This document shows, piece after piece, positions 5,512-64,000 of a DNA stretch of 64,000 nt. The stretch lies in contig BTPG01000008.1 in NCBI GenBank assembly GCA_036245525.1, forward strand, positions 28,889,702 to 28,953,701, in the 5' to 3' direction. The notes beneath the pieces are model-generated. The model ran no database searches and had not been told where the DNA came from. It saw only the letters and a program-made list of their open reading frames with translations. The position numbers were made by a program, and so were the translations under genes. Origin of the DNA: Semisulcospira habei (lineage: Eukaryota; Mollusca; Gastropoda; Semisulcospiridae). Numbering within the stretch: position 1 is the stretch's first letter; every line of letters begins with the position of its first letter.

Positions 5512-5666
<155 letters not shown>

Positions 5667-6303: not shown

Positions 6304-7922
6304 TCAGATCTTGTTAAAAATATCGCATTCTCTCAAAAAATTGAAGATTTTGTCCAGGGGAACATCCCGGAACAAAACCTTCAAGGAGTCTGCTGTGAAG
6401 TGTTTATATCTGGTGTCAATTAGGTCAGCACAATACAGCAAAAAGTGTCGAACAGAAAACTGCTCATCACAGGCAAAACACCATGGACGCTCGTCCTGTT
6501 TAAGTAAGTAAGAGTGCGTAACATACGTGTGCCCGATGTGGAGCCGAGCAAGTCCAGTCTCCTCACGGCGGCTGCCGCAGCGGAAAGGTAGACTGTCAGA
6601 CAACTTAGGAAGAGTTTCATGAAGCTTGTTCCCTTCCTCTTTGTCCCACTCGGACTGCCACTCGCGGGCTATGTACGCACTAATCACAGGTTTAAAATCA
6701 CTATAGACAGTCTGTGTGTCAGGGACAGGGTCACTGCGGGCACTGTTGGCAGCAGAATCTGCGATTCTGTTGCCTTCGATGCCCACATGGCCTGGGACCC
6801 AAATAAAAATGATGTCATAATATTCCTTCATCAAGTCTGCGTAGAGCTCTCTAATCTGCACCAGCAGTGGATGGTCTGTTCCCGCGCCCTGAAGGGCCTG
6901 CAGGGCAGAAAGAGAGTCAGACAGAATCAGGAAGTTCCTTTCCCGAGACTGATAGGCATGCTTGAGTGCCAGCAGAATTGCCTGCAGTTCTGCACTAAAT
7001 ACAGAGGAATGGTCAGGGAGACAGAGCTTAAATGGGCGTTTAGGATGGCGAGAGGACACTGCAGCCACAGCCACCCTCCCATCCTCAGACTTGGACCCAT
7101 CCGTATAAAGACGACAATAGCCAGGAAAAATTGAAAGGAGTTCATTGAGGCTCTGTTGGTATATGGCTGGTGGAGTACAATCCTTCTTGTGGGCGGTCAA
7201 GTCCAGCAAGATGTCAGGAACTGGTAGTAGCCAGGGTGGAGTGACGTGTTGCAGAGATTCCGAAACTTTGTCCAGGTCCACTCCGGCCGCCTGCAGATGA
7301 GGTCGGACACGGAAGGAAAGTGGACGGACAGCTCCCGGATGGGCATCGTAAATCTCTGCAAACGACGGGTTAAAAACACAATCATAGGCAGGATTGTCTG
7401 GATGGGCCTTCAGCTTCAGAACGTAGCTGAGCATGAGGCGGATGCGGCGGAGCCTGAGAGAAGGCTCCCCTGCCTCTGCATACAGACTAGGAACTGGAGA
7501 TGTCCTGAAGGCTCCCAGACATATGCGCAGACCTTGATGGTGAATTGTGTTCAGACGCTGTAGAACAGACTTTGAAGCCGAGCCATATACCACAGAGCCG
7601 TAATCCAGTTTGGACCGAACAAGGGCCCGGTACAGTCGAAGTAAGACAATGCGGTCTGCACCCCAGTCAGTACGACCAACGACACGGAGAATGTCGAGGG
7701 CCTTCCGACAAGAGGTTCTAAGGTAGTTAACATGGTTGCAGAAGGTCAATCTTTTGTCAAAGACGACCCCCAAAAACTTTGCCTCTTCGGCCACCTTAAT
7801 TGGCACTCCAGCAATGCTCAGGCTAGGTTCTGGAAAAAATTTCGTCTGGTTAGTAAAATGCACACAGACTGTCTTGGAGGGCGAGAACACGAATCCATTG
7901 AGAGACACCCACCCCTGGATGC

Positions 7923-8315
7923 TTTGATTGATTGATTGATTGTACATTGCTTAACGTCCCGACAGCAACAAGGCTTTCTCAGGACGTGCCTGCACTGCTT
8001 GTGAAAAAAACAACTAAACAGAACATTGAATGTATGTCGCCAGCCGGTCAAATACATTAAATAAACCTAACACATGGGGCCTAAATAAAGCTAAGACCAT
8101 TTAGCAACACACATCCAATATCAAGAGCTACAGGCAGTGCAGACAGTAGGGAGAGTTTAAAAAAGGCAAATACAGGTGAATGGACCTCGGGTAGACAGAA
8201 ACACATGCCCCAGAATAGAGAGAAAACCCCACCCTGTGGGGCTGACCAGGGTGACCCTGGGAACTAAAAAATACCTAACCCCACCCAAGTCCCCCAGGGC
8301 AGACCCGGGTGGGGT
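7923..8315 (-). mobile_element. SINE2 inserted in LINE ORF2
   Basis: Complete copy of 393 bp with a (GATT)n tail at its low-coordinate end. The direct repeat CCCCTGGATGC at 7912-7922 and 8316-8326 proves insertion; removing the element and one repeat brings the RT frames on either side back into register, so it landed when this part of ORF2 was still open or nearly so. Confidence 0.95.
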
Positions 8316-9971
8316 CCCCTGGATGCGATCAACGCACAGCTGCAAGCGCCTCTCAAGGGACGCAAGTCCTCGACCTCGTGCACACAAAGCAAAGTCGTCC
8401 ACAAACAAAGAGCATTCAGAATCATCCTTGACGGCCTTTACAATGTTATTTATTTTAATGCTAAATAAAACAGGAGATAGAATACTGCCCTGCGGGACAC
8501 CCATCTCCTGTTCAAAGGAGTCGGAGAGGGTGGAGCCCACACGGACATGGAACGACCTGTTGGACAAAAAATTGTGAATAAAAACGGGCAGATGCCCTTT
8601 AAAACCCATGTCCGACAAATCAGACATTATACCATGCTTCCAGGTAGTGTCATATGCCTTTTCAAGATCAAAGAAAATTGCATAGACATGCTGCTTGTTG
8701 ACAAAAGCATCTCGGATAAAAGACTCAAAGCGAACTAGATGGTCAGTTGTACTACGGAAGCGCCGGAAACCGCACTGGAGGTCTGTGATGAGACCCTGTG
8801 ACTCAAGATGCCACACCAGTCGGGCGTTGACCAAGCGTTCCATAGTTTTACATAAACATGATGTCAAAGCTATTGGCCGGTAGTTGCCCGGGTCAAAAGG
8901 ATCCTTACCCGGCTTGGGAATTGGCACAACTACAGCCTGGCGCCAAGATGGCGGAAAGAAAACCGGTTCTCCAGATATGGTTAAAGGCCTTGAGAAGTAC
9001 AAGGAGTGAATCCTCAGGCTGATGTCTTAGGAGCTGATAGTGGATGGTATCTAATCCAGCAGCAGAGTCAGTACATTTCTGCATGGCTTGCTGCAATTCT
9101 GAAAACGTAAAAGGGGCATTATAGTCTTCCGAGTTATCCGATATAAAATCACAAGTACAAGATTCTCGCTTCTCCTTCTCTCTCTGGAAGAAAGGTGAAT
9201 AATGTTCTGTTGAAGAATTATGGGCAATGGTGGAGGCAAGCAAATTGGCCACAGCCTTTTTATCTGTGGCCCAACTGGCACCATCTCTAAGATGGCCGAC
9301 AGAAGCCGAGCCACCCCTGCCCCTAATTCTTCGAACAGCCTTCCAGACTTTTTGGGATGGAGTCCTAGAAGATAAAGATGAGACGAAGCGTCTCCAGGAA
9401 GCACGGCGTTCGCGTTTAAAAATGTAACGGGCTTTCGCCCGCTGTCTTTTAAATGTTAAAATATTTGCTTGCGACAGATTACGAAAAGCAAGTCGCTGAG
9501 CAGATTTGCGCATTGTTTGGGCCTTGCGGCACTCTTCATTGAACCATGGTACTCTCGGCTTCCGAGGGTGTGATGTGGAAGTTCTAGGGATGGTTTCACC
9601 TGCTACGTCCAACAAAATAGAAGTAAAACAAGAAACAGGTTCTTCAGCTGACATGACCACCTCCTCTGTAAGACGAGACTGACAGAGGGAGGCGAACAGA
9701 GGCCAGTTAGCTTTCTTGAGATTCCAGCGCCCCACCGACGAATCCTCCTCACAGCTGACCGATGACAGGACTACTGGGAAGTGGTCACTACCACACAGGT
9801 CGTCGTGAACCTTCCAGTCAAAGTCCAGCATGAGAGAAGGATCACACACAGTGAGGTCTAGAACAGAACTAGATCCAGAACCTGAGTTAGAGTATGTAGG
9901 TGAGCCATCGTTAAAGACACATAGGTTAAGTTGAGAAAAAAACATCTTCTAACATCTGACCTCTGCCATCT

Positions 9972-10870: not shown

Positions 10871-12240
10871 TTACCTTGGAAGGAGTTGAAGAAACAGAGG
10901 GGGCCGGCTCCCGGGCCTCCTCTGGTTCTTCGGAGAGGAAGGAGGTGGAGCTGCCGCAGCATCAGCAACGACAACTTCCACTCCCTCCATCCGCTCCTCC
11001 AGTGCAGCATATTTGTTTTGAAGGGGGACATCAGTGTTCCCCTTCTGGGCCCGTGCGCACAGCGGTCCCATAGATTTCTTAGACCTCTGGTCCTGGGCAG
11101 CGTTCCTGCCGCTAGAGTTAGCGGCCTTAGAAGGCTGACCAGAGCCAGAAGCCTTTGGAGTTGACTGACTAACAGGTTTGGGTGGGGGCTGAGGCTTAGG
11201 GGCAACAGAAGGCGGCACAACCGGACCGGCAGTGTCCGCCTTCTGCGTTCCCTGGTTTCTTGTCACCACCGGAGGAGGGTTACTCTCCAGGGGCGAGATG
11301 AGCCGAGGCTCCGCCCCCAACCAAGAAGTTGGGGTCTGACATGAAAAGTCTTTGGTGGGGCGCTTGCCTGCCACCGCTGCACTAAAAGTATACACAAAGG
11401 TGTTAGAGGTTGGGGCAGCCGCAGCTGCACCAGGGCCTTCAACCAGTTTTTTTTTTTTTGCATCCAGAAAGGACAACCCCTTCTCCACACGCACCTGCTG
11501 AATCTTGCACTCAGATATCCAACGAGGGCATTTCTTATCCGAAGCCATATGCGCCCCCTGGCAATTCACACACAGGGGGGTGGCTGTGCAGGACTCAGCA
11601 GAGTGTCCGGGCCTAGTGCAACGGGCGCATGAAGCCTCTGCCTGACGGCATGTCTTCTGCCCATGGCCATACTTTTGGCACTTAAAGCACCGGAGGGGAA
11701 GAGGGACGTACTTTTTCACTCTCAGGGAGTAGTAACCTCCCCAGATGGTAGTAGGAGGGGTGGGGGTGCCAAACGTCAGGATGATGGTAGGGAGACGGAT
11801 CTCCCCACCACCTCGCTTGGAAGCGAAGCGCCTGACGTAAGTCACCCCCTGAGACTTAAGGTTCCTTATAAGTTCATCTTCTGACAGTTCTGCCAAAGCT
11901 TGATCTTTGATTATGCCTCTTGACGAATTCATAGTTTTGTGGGGTGTGACTTCCACAGGAGTGTCTCCGATGGAAGAGAGCCCCACTGAGTAGCCCGCTG
12001 GAGTGTGCCCGAGTACTCCACCAGCACCACTGGCACTCCACCAGCAAGTCACCAGACCTGAGGCGCTGGGCGTCAGGCCTGCCAACACGGCTCCTGAGGG
12101 TCTCCCCCACCAGAAAAGGATGCAGCTTGGTAACTGGTTTCTCCTTCACCTTGCTATGGACAATGAGGAAGCGAGGCCATACGGCCGACGCCTGATGCGT
12201 CGCTTCCTCACAGTCTGAATCACTGTCATGTTCAATGTCG
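10871..12240 (-). pseudogene. LINE ORF1 (Gag-like, three zinc knuckles)
   Basis: RNA-binding nucleocapsid-like protein of the I-like LINE. Three knuckles lie at about 11690-11523: CFKCQKYGHGQKTC, CARCTRPGHSAESC and the variant CVNCQGAHMASDKKC. A Pro/Ala/Ser-rich C-terminal half follows. The N-terminal part (from about 12240, WPRFLIVHSKVKEKP, FLVGETL) lies in a different frame from the knuckles, with the shift near 12025. An A-run codes KKKK at about 11450. Confidence 0.85.
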
Positions 12241-21422: not shown

Positions 21423-21493
<71 letters not shown>

Positions 21494-21511
21494 CTCATCT
21501 CTCTCCTCTCA

Positions 21512-21560
<49 letters not shown>
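21423..21560. repeat. (CT)n microsatellite, imperfect
   Basis: About 140 bp of CT with occasional CCT and CAT interruptions. Confidence 0.97.
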
Positions 21561-21564
<4 letters not shown>

Positions 21565-21651
21565 ACTCAACGGCAGGTTTGTAAAATGGCTGTGTCAATG
21601 ACGATGTCAATGCCTTAACCGTTGTAAAATAAAGTTTCATTGATTCATTGA

Positions 21652-21652
<1 letters not shown>

Positions 21653-21741
<89 letters not shown>
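21653..21741. repeat. (CT)n microsatellite
   Basis: Pure CT tract. The sequence between the two tracts ends ATAAAGTTTCATTGATTCAT, resembling a SINE/LINE 3' end from which the second tract may have grown as a tail. Confidence 0.95.
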
Positions 21742-23707: not shown

Positions 23708-23852
23708 AAAGCGTTGGAATCAATTAACCTCTGTACTGTAAGAAAGCGTTGGAATCAATTAACCTCTGTACTGTAAGAAAGCGTTGGAATCAATTAACCT
23801 CTGTACTGTAAGAAAGCGTTGGAATCAATTAACCTCTGTACTGTACTGTAAG
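23708..23852. repeat. 35-bp minisatellite, four copies
   Basis: Unit AAAGCGTTGGAATCAATTAA continued by CCTCTGTACTGTAAG. Units start at 23708, 23743, 23778 and 23813; the first three are identical and the fourth has an extra ACTGT. Direct repeats without spacers, so not a CRISPR-like array. Confidence 0.95.
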
Positions 23853-32451: not shown

Positions 32452-32517
32452 CGACCAAGGCAGTTCAGCGGTGGTGTCAGAAAAACGTGGCGCCTGCACA
32501 TAATATTCCAAGGACAC
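32452..32517. mobile_element. hpB left half
   Basis: GGGTCGACCAAGGCAGTTCA ... GGTGGTGTCAG; the right arm lies in the following duplication. Confidence 0.5.
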
Positions 32518-32790
32518 TTTTCTATAACAACCCTTGAACTATCACGGCTGACCCGCCTCCGCAACTATTACGTCAAGTTCACATGCGCCAAATGCGTGCA
32601 TCTGTACCTTCGGGCGTCCAAAACATTTTTTTTTTTAAATATTCTTTTCGTCCTTTTCTATCACAACCCTTGAACTATCACGGCCGATCCGCCTCCGCAA
32701 CTATTACGTTAAGGTCACATGCGCCAAATGCGTTCATCTCTACCTTCGGGCGTCCAAAACATTTTTTTTTTTTAATATTCTTTTCGTCGT
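32518..32790. repeat. 136-bp tandem duplication
   Basis: CCCTTGAACTATCACGGC starts at 32531 and again at 32667, with CCGCCTCCGCAACTATTACG, ACATGCGCCAAATGCGT and CTTCGGGCGTCCAAAACATT repeated in the same order. It duplicates the right half of an hpB element with its flank. Confidence 0.92.
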
Positions 32791-39606: not shown

Positions 39607-39703
<97 letters not shown>

Positions 39704-39711
39704 CACACGCA
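39606..39711. repeat. (CA)n microsatellite
   Basis: About 45 CA units plus CACG interruptions, abutting the next inverted repeat. Confidence 0.97.
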
Positions 39712-39833
39712 CAGGCATGGGATGATCGTTGCGTAGTTCGTCACTTTTTAACACAGGTAGTAGTGAATAGCACCGGTGCTATTTATTACTACTGGTGTCA
39801 GGAGGTGAGAAGTTATCAACCATCATCCCATGC
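39712..39833. mobile_element. hpJ inverted-repeat element
   Basis: CAGGCATGGGATGATCGTTG pairs with ATCATCCCATGCCTG; the inner part TAGTAGTGAATAGCACCGGT pairs with GTGCTATTTATTACTACTGG. Related copies at 52973 and 53337. Flanked by (CA)n on both sides. Confidence 0.82.
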
Positions 39834-39849
39834 CTGCTGTTCTTTCCAT

Positions 39850-39855
39850 TGCACG

Positions 39856-39927
<72 letters not shown>

Positions 39928-39975
39928 ACAGAGAGAGGAAGAGAGAGGACACACACACACACACACACATACACC
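39850..39975. repeat. (CA)n microsatellites
   Basis: Two CA tracts (39852-39926 and 39949-39971) separated by a GAGAGAGG-type stretch. Confidence 0.97.
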
Positions 39976-39983
39976 ACAGAGAG

Positions 39984-43090: not shown

Positions 43091-43228
<138 letters not shown>

Positions 43229-43463
43229 TGCAGTGTGTGTGTAGCGCGTGCTTGCGTTCGTGTGTGTGGTTGCCACAAAGGAACACCGGGACAGAGTGCA
43301 TGCACATGCGTCACGTTTATTTTCGAGGCTGTAACTCCTTCACGTAGCAAGCTTATACTGCACGAAATCCCATTAGCGTCAATGGTTATTTTAGTCGTGC
43401 TACTGAACAAATCCGAAATGTCATTCACTGGACTTTGAAGTAATAGTCAAAGCACGAAAAACC

Positions 43464-45797: not shown

Positions 45798-48700
45798 TTA
45801 TAGGAGTTGCCCACGACGTCTGCAGGCTTGTTCGTGGCTGCGGAGGCCAATCCGAGACAGGCAGGTTCGACCGCAGTGGCTGCAGGGGAAGGTATGGCCA
45901 GGGTTCTGAGCTGCGGCATCTCTGTTTTTTCTCCTGAGCCGCTTGTCCTTAAGGCTAGCTCTGTGAGAGTCCTCAAAGGAGACAGCTGCCTTGTAAATGG
46001 TGGAGCGCCAGGTGTCACGGTCCGCAGCAAGCGAAGACCACTGGTGGTGGTCGATTTGGCAGGCACTAAGTGACTTCTTGAGACAGTCTTTGTATCTCTT
46101 CTTTGGTGCCCCTCTGTCACGGTGTCCAGTAGCAAGCTCGCCGAACAGGGTGATCTTTGGTAGGCGATGATCCTCCATCCTGGAGACATGCCCCGCCCAG
46201 CGGAGCTGTGTCCGCAGCAGCAAAGCCTCGATGCTCACAGTTTCAGCCTGTTCAAGGACCTCGACGTTGGTGACATAGTCACTCCAGTGAATGCCCAGGA
46301 TGGTACGCAGGCAGCGCTGGTGGAAGCGTTCGAGGAGTCGTAGTTGGCTGCGGTAGAGGGCCCAGGACTCGGAACCATACAGCAGGGTGGTGAGGACCAC
46401 AGCTCTGTACACGCTGATCTTGGTGCCTGTTTTCAGCTGTTGATTGTGCCACACCCGCTTGAAAAGTCGCCCGAAAGCGCTGTTCGCTTTTGCCAGCCTG
46501 CTGTCAAGCTCCTTGTCCAGCTTGGCGTCCGACGTGATAATGCAGCCAAGGTAAGTAAACTGGTGCACTGACTTTAGTTCAGACTCGCCAATGGTGATGT
46601 GAGGAGGGCGATACACTGTCTTGGGTGCCGGCTGATGGAGGACCTCTGTCTTTTTCAGACTGACCTCGAGTCCAAAGAGCTGGGCAGCATCTGCGAAGCA
46701 AGACGTGATGCGCTGCAGGGCTCTCTCTGTGTGTGCAACGAGGGCAGCATCATCAGCAAAAAGCAGCTCACGAATCAGTTGGTCTAGGGTTTTCGTGTGG
46801 GCCTGCAGTCGTCTGAGGTTGAACAGGCTGCCATCGAGACGATACCTGATGTACACTGCATCGTCATCATCGAGGTCCACTGTGGCCTGCTTCAACATCA
46901 TGCTAAAAAAGATGGTGAAGAGGGTCGGTGCCAGCACGCAGCCCTGCTTTACGCCGTTGAGAATAGGGAATGGTTCTGAGAGGTCATTGTTGAGTCTGAC
47001 CTGGCCTTGCTGGTCCTCGTGTAGCTGGACAATCATGTTGAGGAACTTTGGGGGACAGCCAAGTCGCTCCAGGATCTGCCACATGCCTTGCCTGCTTACA
47101 GTGTCGAACGCTTTTGTTAGGTCGACAAATGTTACGTACAGCCCTTTGTTCTGCTCGCGGCACTTCTCCTGTAGCTGTCTCAGCACAAAGACCATATCGG
47201 TGGTGCTCCTGTTTGCTCTGAAGCCACACTGGCCCTCTGGGAGTTGGTCTTCAGCGATGGCAGGTACCAGCCGATTCAGGAGCAGCCTTGCAAGGATTTT
47301 CCCAGCAATGGACAGCGTGGTAATTCCCCGATAGTTGGAACAGTCAGACTTCTCGCCTTTGTTCTTGTACAGGGTGATAACGACTGCATCACGGAGATCT
47401 TTTGGTAGTGTTCCTTCCTCCCAGCAGCAGAGAAAGAGGTCATGGAGCTTGTTGTGCAGTGCTGTGCCTCCATGTTTCCAGATCTGTGGCGGTATTCCAT
47501 CAATGCCTGCTGCTTTGCCACTCTTGAGCTGGTGGATGGCTGTGAGGGTCTCTTCAGCGGTGGGCGGTTCGTCCAATTCAACCTTTACTGGGAGGTGTGG
47601 GATTTGTAGGACGACTGCTTCTTGAACAGTGCGCTCAGCGCTGAAGAGGCTCTGAAAGTATTCCGACCAGCGGTTCAAGATGGAGGTATTATCTGTGAGG
47701 AGTGCCTGGCCATTCGCGCTTCGCAGGGGACTTTGTACCAGGTGCCTGGGACCATACACTGCTTTCAGTGCTTCGTAGAAGCCCCTGTAGTCACCATTGT
47801 CAGCACAAAGCTGGGTCCTCTGTGCAAGTCTGGTCCACCACTCATTCTGGAGATCTCTGAGCTTGCGCTGGAGACTGCTGCAGACGAGGCGGAAGGCAGA
47901 CTTCTTCACAGGGCAGGAAGGCTGGGCTAGGTGGGCCTGATGGGCGGCTCTTTTTTTTGCTAGGTGTTCCTGGATCTCTACATCGTTTTCGTCAAACCAG
48001 TCTTTGTTCTTCTTTCTGGCGAAACCCAAGACTTCTGCAGAGGATTTTGCAATAGCAGTTTTCAGTTGTTCCCAAAGTGTTTCAGGGGAGGCGTCTACTG
48101 GGTCCGCTGTGTCTTTGAGCCTGCGCTGTAAATCTGTCTGAAAGGCAGCTTTCACATCGTCACGCTGAAGGCTGGCAACGTCAAGCTTTTTCTTGGGGGG
48201 GCCCCATTTCTTGGGTTTTGGCTTGAAGTGGAGCCTGAGTTTGCAGCGGACAAGGCGGTGGTCAGTGTGGCACTCTGCGCTGGGCATCACTCTGGTGAGG
48301 AGGACGTCACTGCGGTCCCTCTGACGCACTAGGACATAGTCGATAAGGTGCCAGTGTTTGGAGCGAGGATGCAACCAGGTGGTCTTTCGACTGTCCTTTT
48401 GCTGAAAAGTAGTGTTGGTGATGACCAGTTGCTGCTCCGCACAGAACTCCAACAGTAGGCGGCCATTGTCATTGCAGTTCCCCACGCCATGCTTGCCGAG
48501 GACTCCTTTCCAGGCTTCAGAGTCCTGGCCCACTCTGGCGTTGAAGTCGCCAAGGATGATGACTTTGTCGTCTGCAGGGGTACTCTGTAGGAGGCTGCGC
48601 AGGTCAGTGTAAAACTTGTCCTTTTCAGCAGGCTCTGCCAGGAGGGTTGGGGAGTACACACTGAGAAGGGTGACGTGCTGCTGGTGTCTCAGTGGGAGGC

Positions 48701-49025
48701 GCATGGACATGATGCGGTCTGAGTGGCCCGTTGGTAGGTTTTCCAGCTTAGTCGCAATGGATGTCTTGACCATGAAACCCACGCCTGAAAGCCGTCTTTC
48801 TGATGCAGGCCTGCCTGACCAGTAGAGGGTGTACCCAGCACCAAGTTCTTGGAGGCTGCCTTCGTCCGGAAGGCGTACTTCGCTGAGCGCGGCGATGTCG
48901 ATGTTTAACCTCCGCAATTCATGGGCAATGAGGGCGGAGCGACGCTCAGGGCGTCCGCTGTCTGCTTTGTCGAGCATGGTTCGGACGTTCCAGCATGCTA
49001 CGTTGAGTCCGGTCGTGGTCGTCAT
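45798..49025 (-). CDS. LINE ORF: endonuclease-reverse transcriptase, 1075 aa
   Basis: Uninterrupted ORF of an autonomous LINE; it would nick target DNA and reverse-transcribe the element RNA. N-terminal EEP-type endonuclease (residues about 8-262): CWNVRTM at 11-17, E49, ILGDFNARVG at 157-166, HLIDY 226-230 and catalytic-type H256. Reverse transcriptase (about 540-830): NYRGITTLS, QCGFRANRSTTD, VDLTKAFD (634-641), GVKQG (691-695) and the FADD active site (756-759). The C-terminal part has LLYGSESW and RWAGHVSRM motifs and ends in a zinc-finger-like C-x2-C-x12-H-x3-C (residues 1048-1068). No frameshift or internal stop and no RNase H. ATG 49025 is followed directly by the first conserved endonuclease block, which supports this start. 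Confidence 0.95.
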   Translation of the reverse strand: MTTTTGLNVACWNVRTMLDKADSGRPERRSALIAHELRRLNIDIAALSEVRLPDEGSLQELGAGYTLYWSGRPASERRLSGVGFMVKTSIATKLENLPTGHSDRIMSMRLPLRHQQHVTLLSVYSPTLLAEPAEKDKFYTDLRSLLQSTPADDKVIILGDFNARVGQDSEAWKGVLGKHGVGNCNDNGRLLLEFCAEQQLVITNTTFQQKDSRKTTWLHPRSKHWHLIDYVLVRQRDRSDVLLTRVMPSAECHTDHRLVRCKLRLHFKPKPKKWGPPKKKLDVASLQRDDVKAAFQTDLQRRLKDTADPVDASPETLWEQLKTAIAKSSAEVLGFARKKNKDWFDENDVEIQEHLAKKRAAHQAHLAQPSCPVKKSAFRLVCSSLQRKLRDLQNEWWTRLAQRTQLCADNGDYRGFYEALKAVYGPRHLVQSPLRSANGQALLTDNTSILNRWSEYFQSLFSAERTVQEAVVLQIPHLPVKVELDEPPTAEETLTAIHQLKSGKAAGIDGIPPQIWKHGGTALHNKLHDLFLCCWEEGTLPKDLRDAVVITLYKNKGEKSDCSNYRGITTLSIAGKILARLLLNRLVPAIAEDQLPEGQCGFRANRSTTDMVFVLRQLQEKCREQNKGLYVTFVDLTKAFDTVSRQGMWQILERLGCPPKFLNMIVQLHEDQQGQVRLNNDLSEPFPILNGVKQGCVLAPTLFTIFFSMMLKQATVDLDDDDAVYIRYRLDGSLFNLRRLQAHTKTLDQLIRELLFADDAALVAHTERALQRITSCFADAAQLFGLEVSLKKTEVLHQPAPKTVYRPPHITIGESELKSVHQFTYLGCIITSDAKLDKELDSRLAKANSAFGRLFKRVWHNQQLKTGTKISVYRAVVLTTLLYGSESWALYRSQLRLLERFHQRCLRTILGIHWSDYVTNVEVLEQAETVSIEALLLRTQLRWAGHVSRMEDHRLPKITLFGELATGHRDRGAPKKRYKDCLKKSLSACQIDHHQWSSLAADRDTWRSTIYKAAVSFEDSHRASLKDKRLRRKNRDAAAQNPGHTFPCSHCGRTCLSRIGLRSHEQACRRRGQLL

Positions 49026-49698
49026 GAGAGTGGATCCGTTATTCTTTCTTGTTTTTTGACCGCAGGAGAAGATGCCCGTTGACCGCGGCTAGCCAACTGG
49101 GGTTGCGAGGGGACGAGCTTTGGTTAGGCCACCTTTTCTAGGCCCCTCTCCGTGTGGAGCAAGCAGTGCTGTCCCTAGAGAAGGCTGCTTGGTCGTTCAG
49201 GGTGTGCCGAGTGATGTTGTCATCCCCAGGTCAACATCAGGCGACCAATATCCTGAACCGCCTGCATGCAGGTTTGAGACTGCGGCTTCCAGTGACATCT
49301 TTCACCTGCCGTTTCGCCCCTCGCCCGTCGCTACAGGACTTGGAATGGTCAGTGTCATGGTCCGTGGACGTTTCCTAAAGCCTGCGCGGTGGAGCTTTTT
49401 GGTGGAGTGCAGTGTGCGCAGTACTGGCCCCACCCTTTAAACCCTTGGTTCATCTGCCATGGCCTAGCAAGCTGGGACGATGGCATCGAGGTCCTCGGGT
49501 CGTAGGTTTTATATCAGACTGTCCTTGTCCTAGTCTCTGGCTCAAAAGCCTTCCCCGGAGACAAGGGGGCTTTGATGTCAGGGGTTTCCTCCCTTAGCCT
49601 TTCCGCAGCCAAGCGGCCAGGCCTGCAAGGCAGCAGGCGACTCGTGGAGGGCGGGGTCGTCTATGTCCCGTGCAGATGTGAACATCTGCCCACTGCCC
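49026..49698 (-). other. 5' leader of the RTE-like LINE
   Basis: GC-rich leader without a conserved second ORF. It should hold the internal promoter. RTE-type leaders can carry HDV-like ribozymes; none was identified by eye. Confidence 0.6.
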
Positions 49699-50735: not shown

Positions 50736-51034
<299 letters not shown>

Positions 51035-61997: not shown

Positions 61998-62092
61998 CAG
62001 CAAGTCATCGGGCCGACGTCATTCACAGCAGACCCTCGCACAGCCGTGCGCGGGTCAACTACGGCCGACGTCGGCCCGAGGACCTGTTGCTA
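61998..62092. mobile_element. hpE hairpin element
   Basis: CAGCAAGTCATCGGGCCGAC against GTCGGCCCGAGGACCTGTTG; centre CCCTCGCACAGCCGTGCGCGGG-type stem. Confidence 0.78.
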
Positions 62093-62475
62093 GCTGACGG
62101 AGCAGTTCAATGCGTTCTGCCCATGATTACCTCAAGAGACTACATGAGCATGATCATGTGCAATCGAACCATTAATTAAAAGAAAAGGGGAGACTGCCAG
62201 TGCTAATATTTTAGGAAGGTTACAAAGTAAAGTAGATTATAGCACTGTCAGGGGAGAGAAATGTGCATGATCGACCAGTGATCATAGATCTACTGTGGCC
62301 AAAGCACAAAAAAAAAAGAGAGATAGGAAAGAGAGGGGCGCTAAGAGAGTGACTGAAAGCAATGCATATGGAAGCCCCCCCGAAGGGGGGCGTATCACAT
62401 ATCCCACTGTTCCAGCCACTCAGTGCATGGAAATTTAAATCTAGGTCCCCCCGAGGGGGGTCCAGATATTTAGCC

Positions 62476-62519
62476 GGTGTGGACAGCTGTTTCGGTCTTG
62501 GCGACCTCTTCAGCACACC
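62476..62519 (-). ncRNA. Type I hammerhead ribozyme, unit 1
   Basis: Minus strand 62519 to 62476 in order: stem I strand GGTGTG; conserved CTGAAGA (62513-62507); stem II GGTC-GCCAA-GACC; GAAA (62493-62490, the last A being 15.1); stem III, which is part of the palindrome ACAGCTGT (62490-62483); cleavage base C at 62482, giving GTC; stem I strand CACACC (62481-62476), fully complementary to GGTGTG. All catalytic-core positions of the consensus are satisfied. Stem III alone is only about 3 bp, but its palindrome would pair between two molecules, as in known dimeric hammerheads. Predicted cut between 62482 and 62481. Confidence 0.9.
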
Positions 62520-62996
62520 ATCGGCGATACTGGCGGAGGCAGGAATTTCTGCCTACCTGCAAAGACAACCACATTTTACCGTGGTGTCTGCAGGGGGCAT
62601 ACATTCCATGCCACCACCTAGAGCTAAATCTCCATGCACCCTAAAAGAGAACCTACCAAAAGGGGGGAAGGGGTTGCAGTCGATATTGTAGTAGTAAATG
62701 AAAAGAAAAGGGGAGACTGCCAGTGCTAATATTTTAGGAAGGTTACAAAGTAAAGTAGATTATAGCACTGTCAGGGGAGAGAAATGTGCATGATCGACCA
62801 GTGATCATAGATCTACTGTGGCCAAAGCACAAAAAAAAAAGAGATAGGAAAGAGAGGGGCGCTAAGAGAGTGACTGAAAGCAATGCATATGGAAGCCCCC
62901 CCGAAGGGGGGCGTATCACATATCCCACTGTTCCAGCCACTCAGTGCATGGAAATTTAAATCTAGGTCCCCCCGAGGGGGGTCCAGATATTTAGCC

Positions 62997-63040
62997 GGTG
63001 TGGACAGCTGTTTCGGTCTTGGCGACCTCTTCAGCACACC
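62997..63040 (-). ncRNA. Type I hammerhead ribozyme, unit 2
   Basis: Identical to the unit 1 core over all 44 positions. Predicted cleavage after the C opposite 63003, 521 nt from the site in unit 1. Confidence 0.9.
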
Positions 63041-63528
63041 ATCGGCGATACTGGCGGAGGCAGGAATTTCTGCCTACCTGCAAAGACAACCACATTTTAC
63101 CGTGGTGTCTGCAGGGGGCATACATTCCATGCCACCACCTAGAGCTAAATCTCCATGCACCCTAAAAGAGAACCTACCAAAAGGGGGGAAGGGGTTGCAG
63201 TCGATATTGTAGTAGTAAATGAAAAGAAAAGGGGAGACTGCCAGTGCTAATATTTTAGGAAGGTTACAAAGTAAAGTAGATTATAGCACTGTCAGGGGAG
63301 AGAAATGTGCATGATCGACCAGTGATCATAGATCTACTGTGGCCAAAGCACAAAAAAAAAAGAGATAGGAAAGAGAGGGGCGCTAAGAGAGTGACTGAAA
63401 GCAATGCATATGGAAGCCCCCCCCCCCCCCCCCGAAGGGGGGGCGTATCACATATCCCACTGTTCCAGCCACTCAGTGCATGGAAATTTAAATCTAGGTC
63501 CCCCCGAGGGGGGTCCAGATATTTAGCC

Positions 63529-63572
63529 AGTGTGGACAGCTGTTTCGGTCTTGGCGACCTCTTCAGCACACC
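63529..63572 (-). ncRNA. Type I hammerhead ribozyme, unit 3
   Basis: One change: 63529 is A, so the last base of the stem I strand becomes U in RNA (CACACU) and pairs with G as a wobble; the core is unchanged. Predicted cleavage lies 532 nt from that of unit 2. Confidence 0.9.
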
Positions 63573-64000
63573 ATCGGCGATACTGGCGGAGGCAGGAATT
63601 TCTGCCTACCTGCAAAGACAACCACATTTTACCGTGGTGTCTGCAGGGGGCATACATTCCATGCCACCACCTAGAGCTAAATCTCCATGCACCCTAAAAG
63701 AGAACCTACCAAAAGGGGGGAAGGGGTTGCAGTCGATATTGTAGTAGTAAATGAAAAGAAAAGGGGAGACTGCCAGTGCTAATATTTTAGGAAGGTTACA
63801 AAGTAAAGTAGATTATAGCACTGTCAGGGGAGAGAAATGTGCATGATCGACCAGTGATCATAGATCTACTGTGGCCAAAGCACAAAAAAAAAGAGATAGG
63901 AAAGAGAGGGGCGCTAAGAGAGTGACTGAAAGCAATGCATATGGAAGCCCCCCCCCCCCCCCCGAAGGGGGGCGTATCACATATCCCACTGTTCCAGCCA

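Follow-up and report, generated by a model that had tools for sequence, protein, structure and literature searches.

Hammerhead-bearing tandem units of Semisulcospira habei form dispersed head-to-head insertions with two preferred ends and resemble a non-autonomous retrozyme

Results

The array at the end of the window

The window, by which we mean the whole stretch of 64,000 nucleotides analysed here (contig BTPG01000008.1, C8:28889702-28953701, in the 1.98-Gb genome of the snail Semisulcospira habei), ends in a head-to-tail array of units of 523 (anchor at 62177), 521 and 532 bp followed by 248 bp of a fourth (Table 1). BLAST identity of units 2, 3 and 4 to unit 1 is 99.6, 97.4 and 95.2%, respectively, the loss being mainly in the lengths of a C-run and an A-run. 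The unit, 521-532 bp in the window, has a GC content of 48.6% and no reverse transcriptase or GIY-YIG frame, and among the stop-to-stop frames listed across the array the longest has 154 aa.

Elsewhere the window carries a non-LTR retrotransposon piece whose 1,096-aa open frame has RVT_1 and endonuclease domains (45801-49088, minus strand), and further non-LTR pieces with RVT_1 and RNase H (8160-9026, 8908-9948 and 6307-7950, all on the minus strand), the endonuclease match at 8908-9948 lying just below the cut-off; among the five frames scanned, the one at 10874-12145 matched no family. Long di- and tetranucleotide microsatellites are dense (5516-5662, 43096-43266, 50738-51033, 21424-21741 and 39608-39978), and there are tandem repeats of 136 bp (32517-32788, 2 copies, 94% matches) and of 35 bp (23708-23845, 3.9 copies, 100%).

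Table 1. Features of the array within the window
Feature	Position	Strand	Remarks
Target site duplication, left copy	62166..62178	.	longest word common to the flanks; right copy L009:7726-7738, beyond the window
Left arm of two-armed insertion, part in window	62179..64000	-	whole insertion L009:2180-7725
Outer end, class A, of window insertion	62179..62190	-	putative cDNA start adjoining the target
Class B start zone in unit 2	62734..62746	-	unit 35-47, by hand from duplications; actual B is the right outer end, beyond the window
Predicted stem-loop	62717..62774	-	loop contains the B zone; 3' foot just before A
Unit 1	62179..62699	-	521 bp counted from corrected start
Unit 2	62700..63220	-	521 bp; serves as reference unit
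Unit 3	63221..63752	-	532 bp; longer C-run
Unit 4, beginning only	63753..64000	-	ended by window edge
Type I hammerhead motif, unit 1	62476..62519	-	predicted cut 62482/62481
Type I hammerhead motif, unit 2	62997..63040	-	unit positions 298-341
Type I hammerhead motif, unit 3	63529..63572	-	last stem I pair G-T

A hammerhead motif in every complete unit

The minus strand of all three complete units reads GGTGTG-CTGAAGA-GGTC-GCCAA-GACC-GAA-ACAGCTGT-C-CACACC, with a G-T as the final stem I pair in unit 3. On paper it folds into a type I hammerhead in which the core elements CTGAAGA and GAA are flanked by a 6-bp stem I with more pairs past a GAU bulge, by a stem II of 4 bp with the loop GCCAA, and by a stem III of 2 bp closed by AGCT, i.e., the palindrome ACAGCTGT. 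An earlier note on this DNA had claimed a minus-strand hammerhead in each complete unit of a tandem array, and this is borne out in 3/3 full units, beyond chance by a structural scan and by genome counts; its cleavage position, 62482/62481 in unit 1, is the one that we predict, after GTC. In the scan, which covered the window and loci L009-L043 (~0.33 Mb), the hammerhead descriptor matched solely inside units, and the 72 rows labelled outside units all came from L001-L008, whose units were unmasked. The 32-nt ribozyme core has 4,256 + 4,317 = 8,573 matches in the genome at up to 3 mismatches, and the reversed pattern has 0. A loose pattern gave 34 matches in bacterial genomes, and viral contigs held 0 exact matches. 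As a feature of the sequence, we take the type I hammerhead motif in the minus strand of the units to be real.

Rfam covariance models called no hammerhead, either at gathering scores in the whole window or at E<=10 in 62000-64000, which literally is the background scoring that the earlier note had named as evidence against its claim. In our judgement the miss reflects insensitivity to a very short helix III, and because this helix has only 2 bp with a 4-nt loop the outcome deserves little weight.

In the monomer the hammerhead fold (-20.3 kcal/mol) is far from the competing hairpin (-28.1 kcal/mol), whereas a dimer with a common 8-bp palindromic stem III reaches -53.7 against an optimum of -56.2 kcal/mol, and therefore the dimer is, on folding energies, the likelier active form. 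Amphibian retrozyme hammerheads act as dimers (PMC7229834), and dimeric action has been discussed for Penelope hammerheads (PMC7761336); here and below, statements on these papers, on PMC3846280 and on PMC11167929 refer to the available portions of their texts. The 521-nt circle folds at -193.8 kcal/mol, compared to -141.7 (sd 5.3) in 60 shuffles (z -9.8).

The whole insertion and its dispersed relatives

The earlier note described a plain tandem array, which holds for the head-to-tail units and is incomplete in that the window displays only one arm: the array continues for ~3.7 kb beyond the window and inverts. The entire insertion (L009) consists of ~6.2 units in one direction followed by ~4.4 units in the other, ~5.5 kb of inserted DNA of which 1.8 kb is in the window, and no full unit of its arms is interrupted at the cut site. 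A 13-bp word, GAACCATTAATTA, is present in both flanks, and this target duplication moves the start of the element from 62178, as previously given, to 62179.

The element is dispersed as short tandem arrays, dimers to multimers, a feature of retrozymes. Among the 8,573 matches, 100 places were listed, all exact and from the first 71 Mb of C1; by a 1,500-bp rule they form 67 clusters, 48 of them single. All 15 mixed-strand clusters among the matches listed are head-to-head, '-' then '+', and all 18 same-strand neighbours among them are spaced 515-540 bp. We read 33 loci, comprising the window's own and the 12 best BLAST loci (40 scored of 93 candidates), together L009-L021, and 20 consecutive listed places (L023-L042); 46 of the 67 listed clusters fall outside the loci read. 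These loci hold 37 clusters in all. Copies in L009-L021 are mostly 97-99.5% identical to the reference unit, and those from L023 on are 78-96% identical, with one 256-bp fragment at 65%. In L028, L030 and L041 the element is represented by an older subfamily (82.8, 85.5 and 87.1% identical, respectively) with 32 changes common to all three loci, none of them in unit 1-40.

Divergence in unit 1-40 is low among the L023-L042 units, 1.7%, where 40-nt windows span 0.8-7.0%. The hammerhead itself diverges by 0.1%, compared to 3.6-4.8% beside it (23 units, L023-L042), but these loci were picked by an exact core match and we do not use this conservation as evidence.

Two preferred outer ends and target duplications

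The outer ends of the arms gather at two sites ~40 nt apart, A and B. An end was scored as A at unit 510-521 or 1-16 and as B at unit 28-52, in clusters of at least 150 bp; one of the 37, incomplete at the L032 edge, was dropped, leaving n=36. As scored, the two-armed insertions were 13 A/B, 3 A/other, 1 B/other, 0 A/A and 0 B/B, two of the 13 A/B calls resting on looser ends (L032 at 42 and 14; L033 at 1 and 52) and the left end of L021 being hand-set to a 64-bp fragment. Hand-joining the two L035 pieces, a B/other and a one-armed A ~265 bp apart, gives 14/17 A/B and 3 A/other. One-armed insertions ended at A in 9 cases (8 without the L035 piece), at B in 7 and elsewhere in 3. The chance of 14/14 mixed pairs under independent and about equal draws is ~6e-5, by hand arithmetic with the three A/other left out. 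Corrected by hand for the duplications, the starts lie at unit -7 to +4 for A and at 35 to 47 for B. In L012, L017 and L034 one end is A and the other is at a third position (unit 162, 126 and 111, respectively), possibly a further start site or the result of later loss. In L021 an unassigned stretch of ~130 bp (L021:4234-4365) separates a short piece of left arm from the long arm on the right.

A flank word of at least 8 bp is common to both sides in 20/36 clusters, as opposed to 1.6% of mismatched flank pairs, and the duplication is 13 or 14 bp long in 15 of the 20, a measure that may include chance neighbouring bases. The 16/36 clusters without such a word include L021, measured from the wrong left end, and L010, in which a longer imperfect match can be seen by eye; no duplication was seen in the L019 flanks.

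A stem-loop is predicted around A and B (Table 1). Its fold within 62690-62800 is weak (z -1.23; 22/200 shuffles fold equally well), and it recurs in the fold of the full circle.

One haplotype per insertion and scattered inner joins

Units of one insertion share one haplotype in both arms. Our set comprised 61 units of at least 300 bp from 13 loci, in which five of eight informative columns were used, the three left out (two C-run-adjacent shifts and one recurrent CpG change) varying within some arrays. At the five sites discordance within insertions was 0/785 pair-sites, compared to a mean of 229 and a least value of 184 in 300 shuffles; across arms, in the six loci with both arms long enough, it was 0/193, and between insertions 2,530/7,779. 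A private change of L020 is present in both of its arms. The C-run varies from 7 to 17 among units of one array, either from slippage or from assembly error.

The inner joins (n=17) occur at scattered points of the unit and mostly unite unrelated unit positions. Nine have 0-7 bp of overlap, four have 2-24 bp of filler and four have 20-100 bp of overlap, the last being cases in which a loose alignment ran through the join; stricter scoring gives 19 bp of filler in L011 and 5 bp of overlap in L012. With three long-overlap junctions left out, 0/47 arm ends lie within 8 nt of the cut site, and thus we reject cut linear monomers as the template. Among the same 47, 12 arm ends fall at unit 160-210, before a GC hairpin (P 0.0015, for a window chosen after viewing the data).

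Search for a Penelope-type partner

In a genome search for GIY-YIG, 150 of 1,583 candidates were scored, and 35 of them matched above the cut-off. Three stretches were read: L043 (4.0 kb) and L078 (1.5 kb), which are one family, and L079, which has no recognisable Penelope part. We found no recognisable hammerhead in the portions of L043 and L078 that were read, which include the 5' side of both, and BLAST of the two against the unit gave matches of only 10-24 bases, the best (E 0.021) in a simple repeat. In the L043 protein Pfam finds GIY-YIG only, and the remainder of the frame is judged by eye to be reverse transcriptase. It has no sequence relative in PDB and 85 relatives at E<=0.001, the named one being from the snail Batillaria (70% over 28% of the query) and another bearing a bacterial label. 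Long TA-repeat tracts lie upstream in L043 and L078 and a GA-rich repeat tract follows the L043 frame; perhaps this Penelope-like family prefers simple repeats.

Discussion

The hammerhead motif, the scatter of copies over the genome, the mirror-image layout, the A and B ends, the target duplications and the single haplotype per insertion are all read directly in the sequence. On this basis we propose, with a probability of about 0.7, that the unit belongs to the non-autonomous retrozymes of metazoan type and that its circular or multimeric RNA is copied by a Penelope-type enzyme with cDNA primed from each target strand. Cleavage, circularisation, rolling-circle copying and the enzyme are what we infer. 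Paired hammerheads would cleave multimeric transcripts of the ribozyme strand to ~521-nt monomers, and a host ligase would close these into circles. A Penelope-type reverse transcriptase/endonuclease would then make a staggered break of ~13 nt, and from the two target 3' ends cDNA synthesis would start on the RNA, at A from one and at B from the other, ~40 nt apart. Each cDNA could make several laps round the RNA, and the two would be joined in the middle, giving head-to-head arms; one-armed insertions would arise by extension of only one end. We count in favour of this proposal that two-armed insertions mostly pair A with B and never A with A or B with B, although one-armed insertions use A and B about equally. 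Against it stand the Rfam miss, the outcome for the two copies of a Penelope-like family read (L043 and L078), in which neither a hammerhead nor noteworthy similarity to the unit was seen, the behaviour of the anole Penelope in vitro (below), the 4/17 joins with 20-100 bp of overlap, the 16/36 clusters without a flank word and the three third-class ends.

The earlier note had suggested a retrozyme, which is partly supported by the dispersed copies, the target duplications and the preferred ends. The element fits the metazoan non-LTR retrozymes of coral, mussel and axolotl in the features that we compared in sequence, except for unit size: they too have a type I hammerhead, tandem units, a GC content below 50%, highly self-paired RNA, thousands of copies and, when duplications are present, target duplications of more than 4 bp (PMC7229834). 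Their units are of 150-450 bp as opposed to 521 nt here, while the discussion of the same paper allows circles of 150 to >1000 nt, and we judge the size to be descriptive and not defining. No LTR, primer binding site or polypurine tract is apparent in our unit, and the metazoan non-LTR retrozymes have none. Mirrored arms and A/B ends are not described in the available text of PMC7229834. Plant LTR retrozymes are likewise non-autonomous, with a hammerhead and a circular RNA intermediate, which we suppose here, and they differ in having a type III hammerhead, LTRs with 4-bp duplications and units of 600-1000 bp, according to the portions of the literature available. Hammerhead satellites and SINE-like repeats (newt, cave cricket pDo500, schistosome SMalpha, W-elements) are also non-coding repeats with type I hammerheads, the pDo500 unit being about 500 bp, and we know of no mirrored A/B arms among them.

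The earlier note also pointed to Penelope-like elements. This link gains from the duplications of mostly 13-14 bp, the two ends that resemble a Penelope tail and the head-to-head arms. No relative of the one usable Penelope query family was found in the window or in the fetched insertion loci. In published Penelope insertions inverted pLTRs are placed head-to-head, one of them carries a tail of 31 bp (30-40 bp), and the target duplications are short (PMC3846280). In vitro, both strands of the target are cut and extended by the anole enzyme, which begins at two neighbouring internal sites corresponding to the genomic tail (PMC11167929). The elements of Adineta vaga and the anole Poseidon share with ours head-to-head copies, an optional tail of 30-40 bp at one inverted end, a hammerhead, target duplications, two adjacent internal starts and, as we propose for our element, cutting and extension of both target strands (PMC3846280; PMC11167929). 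Since head-to-head arms, a 30-40 nt tail at one end only and target duplications are all found here, the arrays appear, by analogy, to work like the product of a Penelope-type insertion without being themselves a Penelope element; the prediction of an analogous stem-loop at A and B is weak. The differences are that duplications in Penelope-like elements are 8-10 bp and here mostly 13-14 bp, that our unit has no RT/GIY-YIG frame, and that both of its arms can be multimeric. Moreover, A and B are paired in each insertion here, whereas in the available text of PMC11167929 the start sites are alike on both strands. A rule of one start site of each kind per insertion was not found in print in open-licence papers.

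The strongest rival, which we consider rather unlikely, keeps the same Penelope-type insertion and takes as template a linear multimer transcribed by read-through from an older array, with a hammerhead that would be dispensable. Such a multimer, as well as a circle, allows the cut site to be crossed intact, and source arrays that are uniform themselves should yield uniform daughters either way. In addition, ribozyme mutants of the anole element still insert in vitro and unprocessed RNA is its dominant substrate (PMC11167929), which argues against the need for a cut circle. However, the variants between units are private, save for the recurrent CpG change and the C-run-side columns, whereas copying of a whole multimer should transmit such patterns; this argument draws on 13 young loci and the source arrays may simply be missing from the sample.

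It is very improbable here that one nucleic acid folds back or primes itself to give the two arms, an origin put forward for the Adineta vaga Penelope on the basis of palindromes at inverted junctions (PMC3846280). The join of L012 is indeed near-palindromic, yet self-priming predicts equal outer start sites, and the ends differ (A and B), and it predicts symmetric joins, while most joins unite unrelated positions. The tandem, nearly identical and non-coding units would also suit an ordinary satellite that recombination has spread and that has a hammerhead only by accident, but this reading is contradicted by the preferred ends, the mirrored arms, the dispersal in short arrays and the duplicated flank words.

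Returning to a retrozyme inserted by a Penelope-type enzyme, we tentatively raise a more specific version, which may well prove wrong: two reverse transcriptases of one Penelope-type dimer could sit side by side at A and B on one circle, each primed by one strand of the break, and make several laps in file. If so, the mirrored arrays would preserve in the genome the trace of a single circle that served as template for both cDNAs, and they would answer the question of what moves metazoan retrozymes. In PMC7229834 Penelope-like elements are named as no more than a strong candidate for moving these retrozymes, and the family described here, with its thousands of copies, bears the Penelope end signature. 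The A/B pairing and the common haplotype of both arms bear on the biology of Penelope as well.
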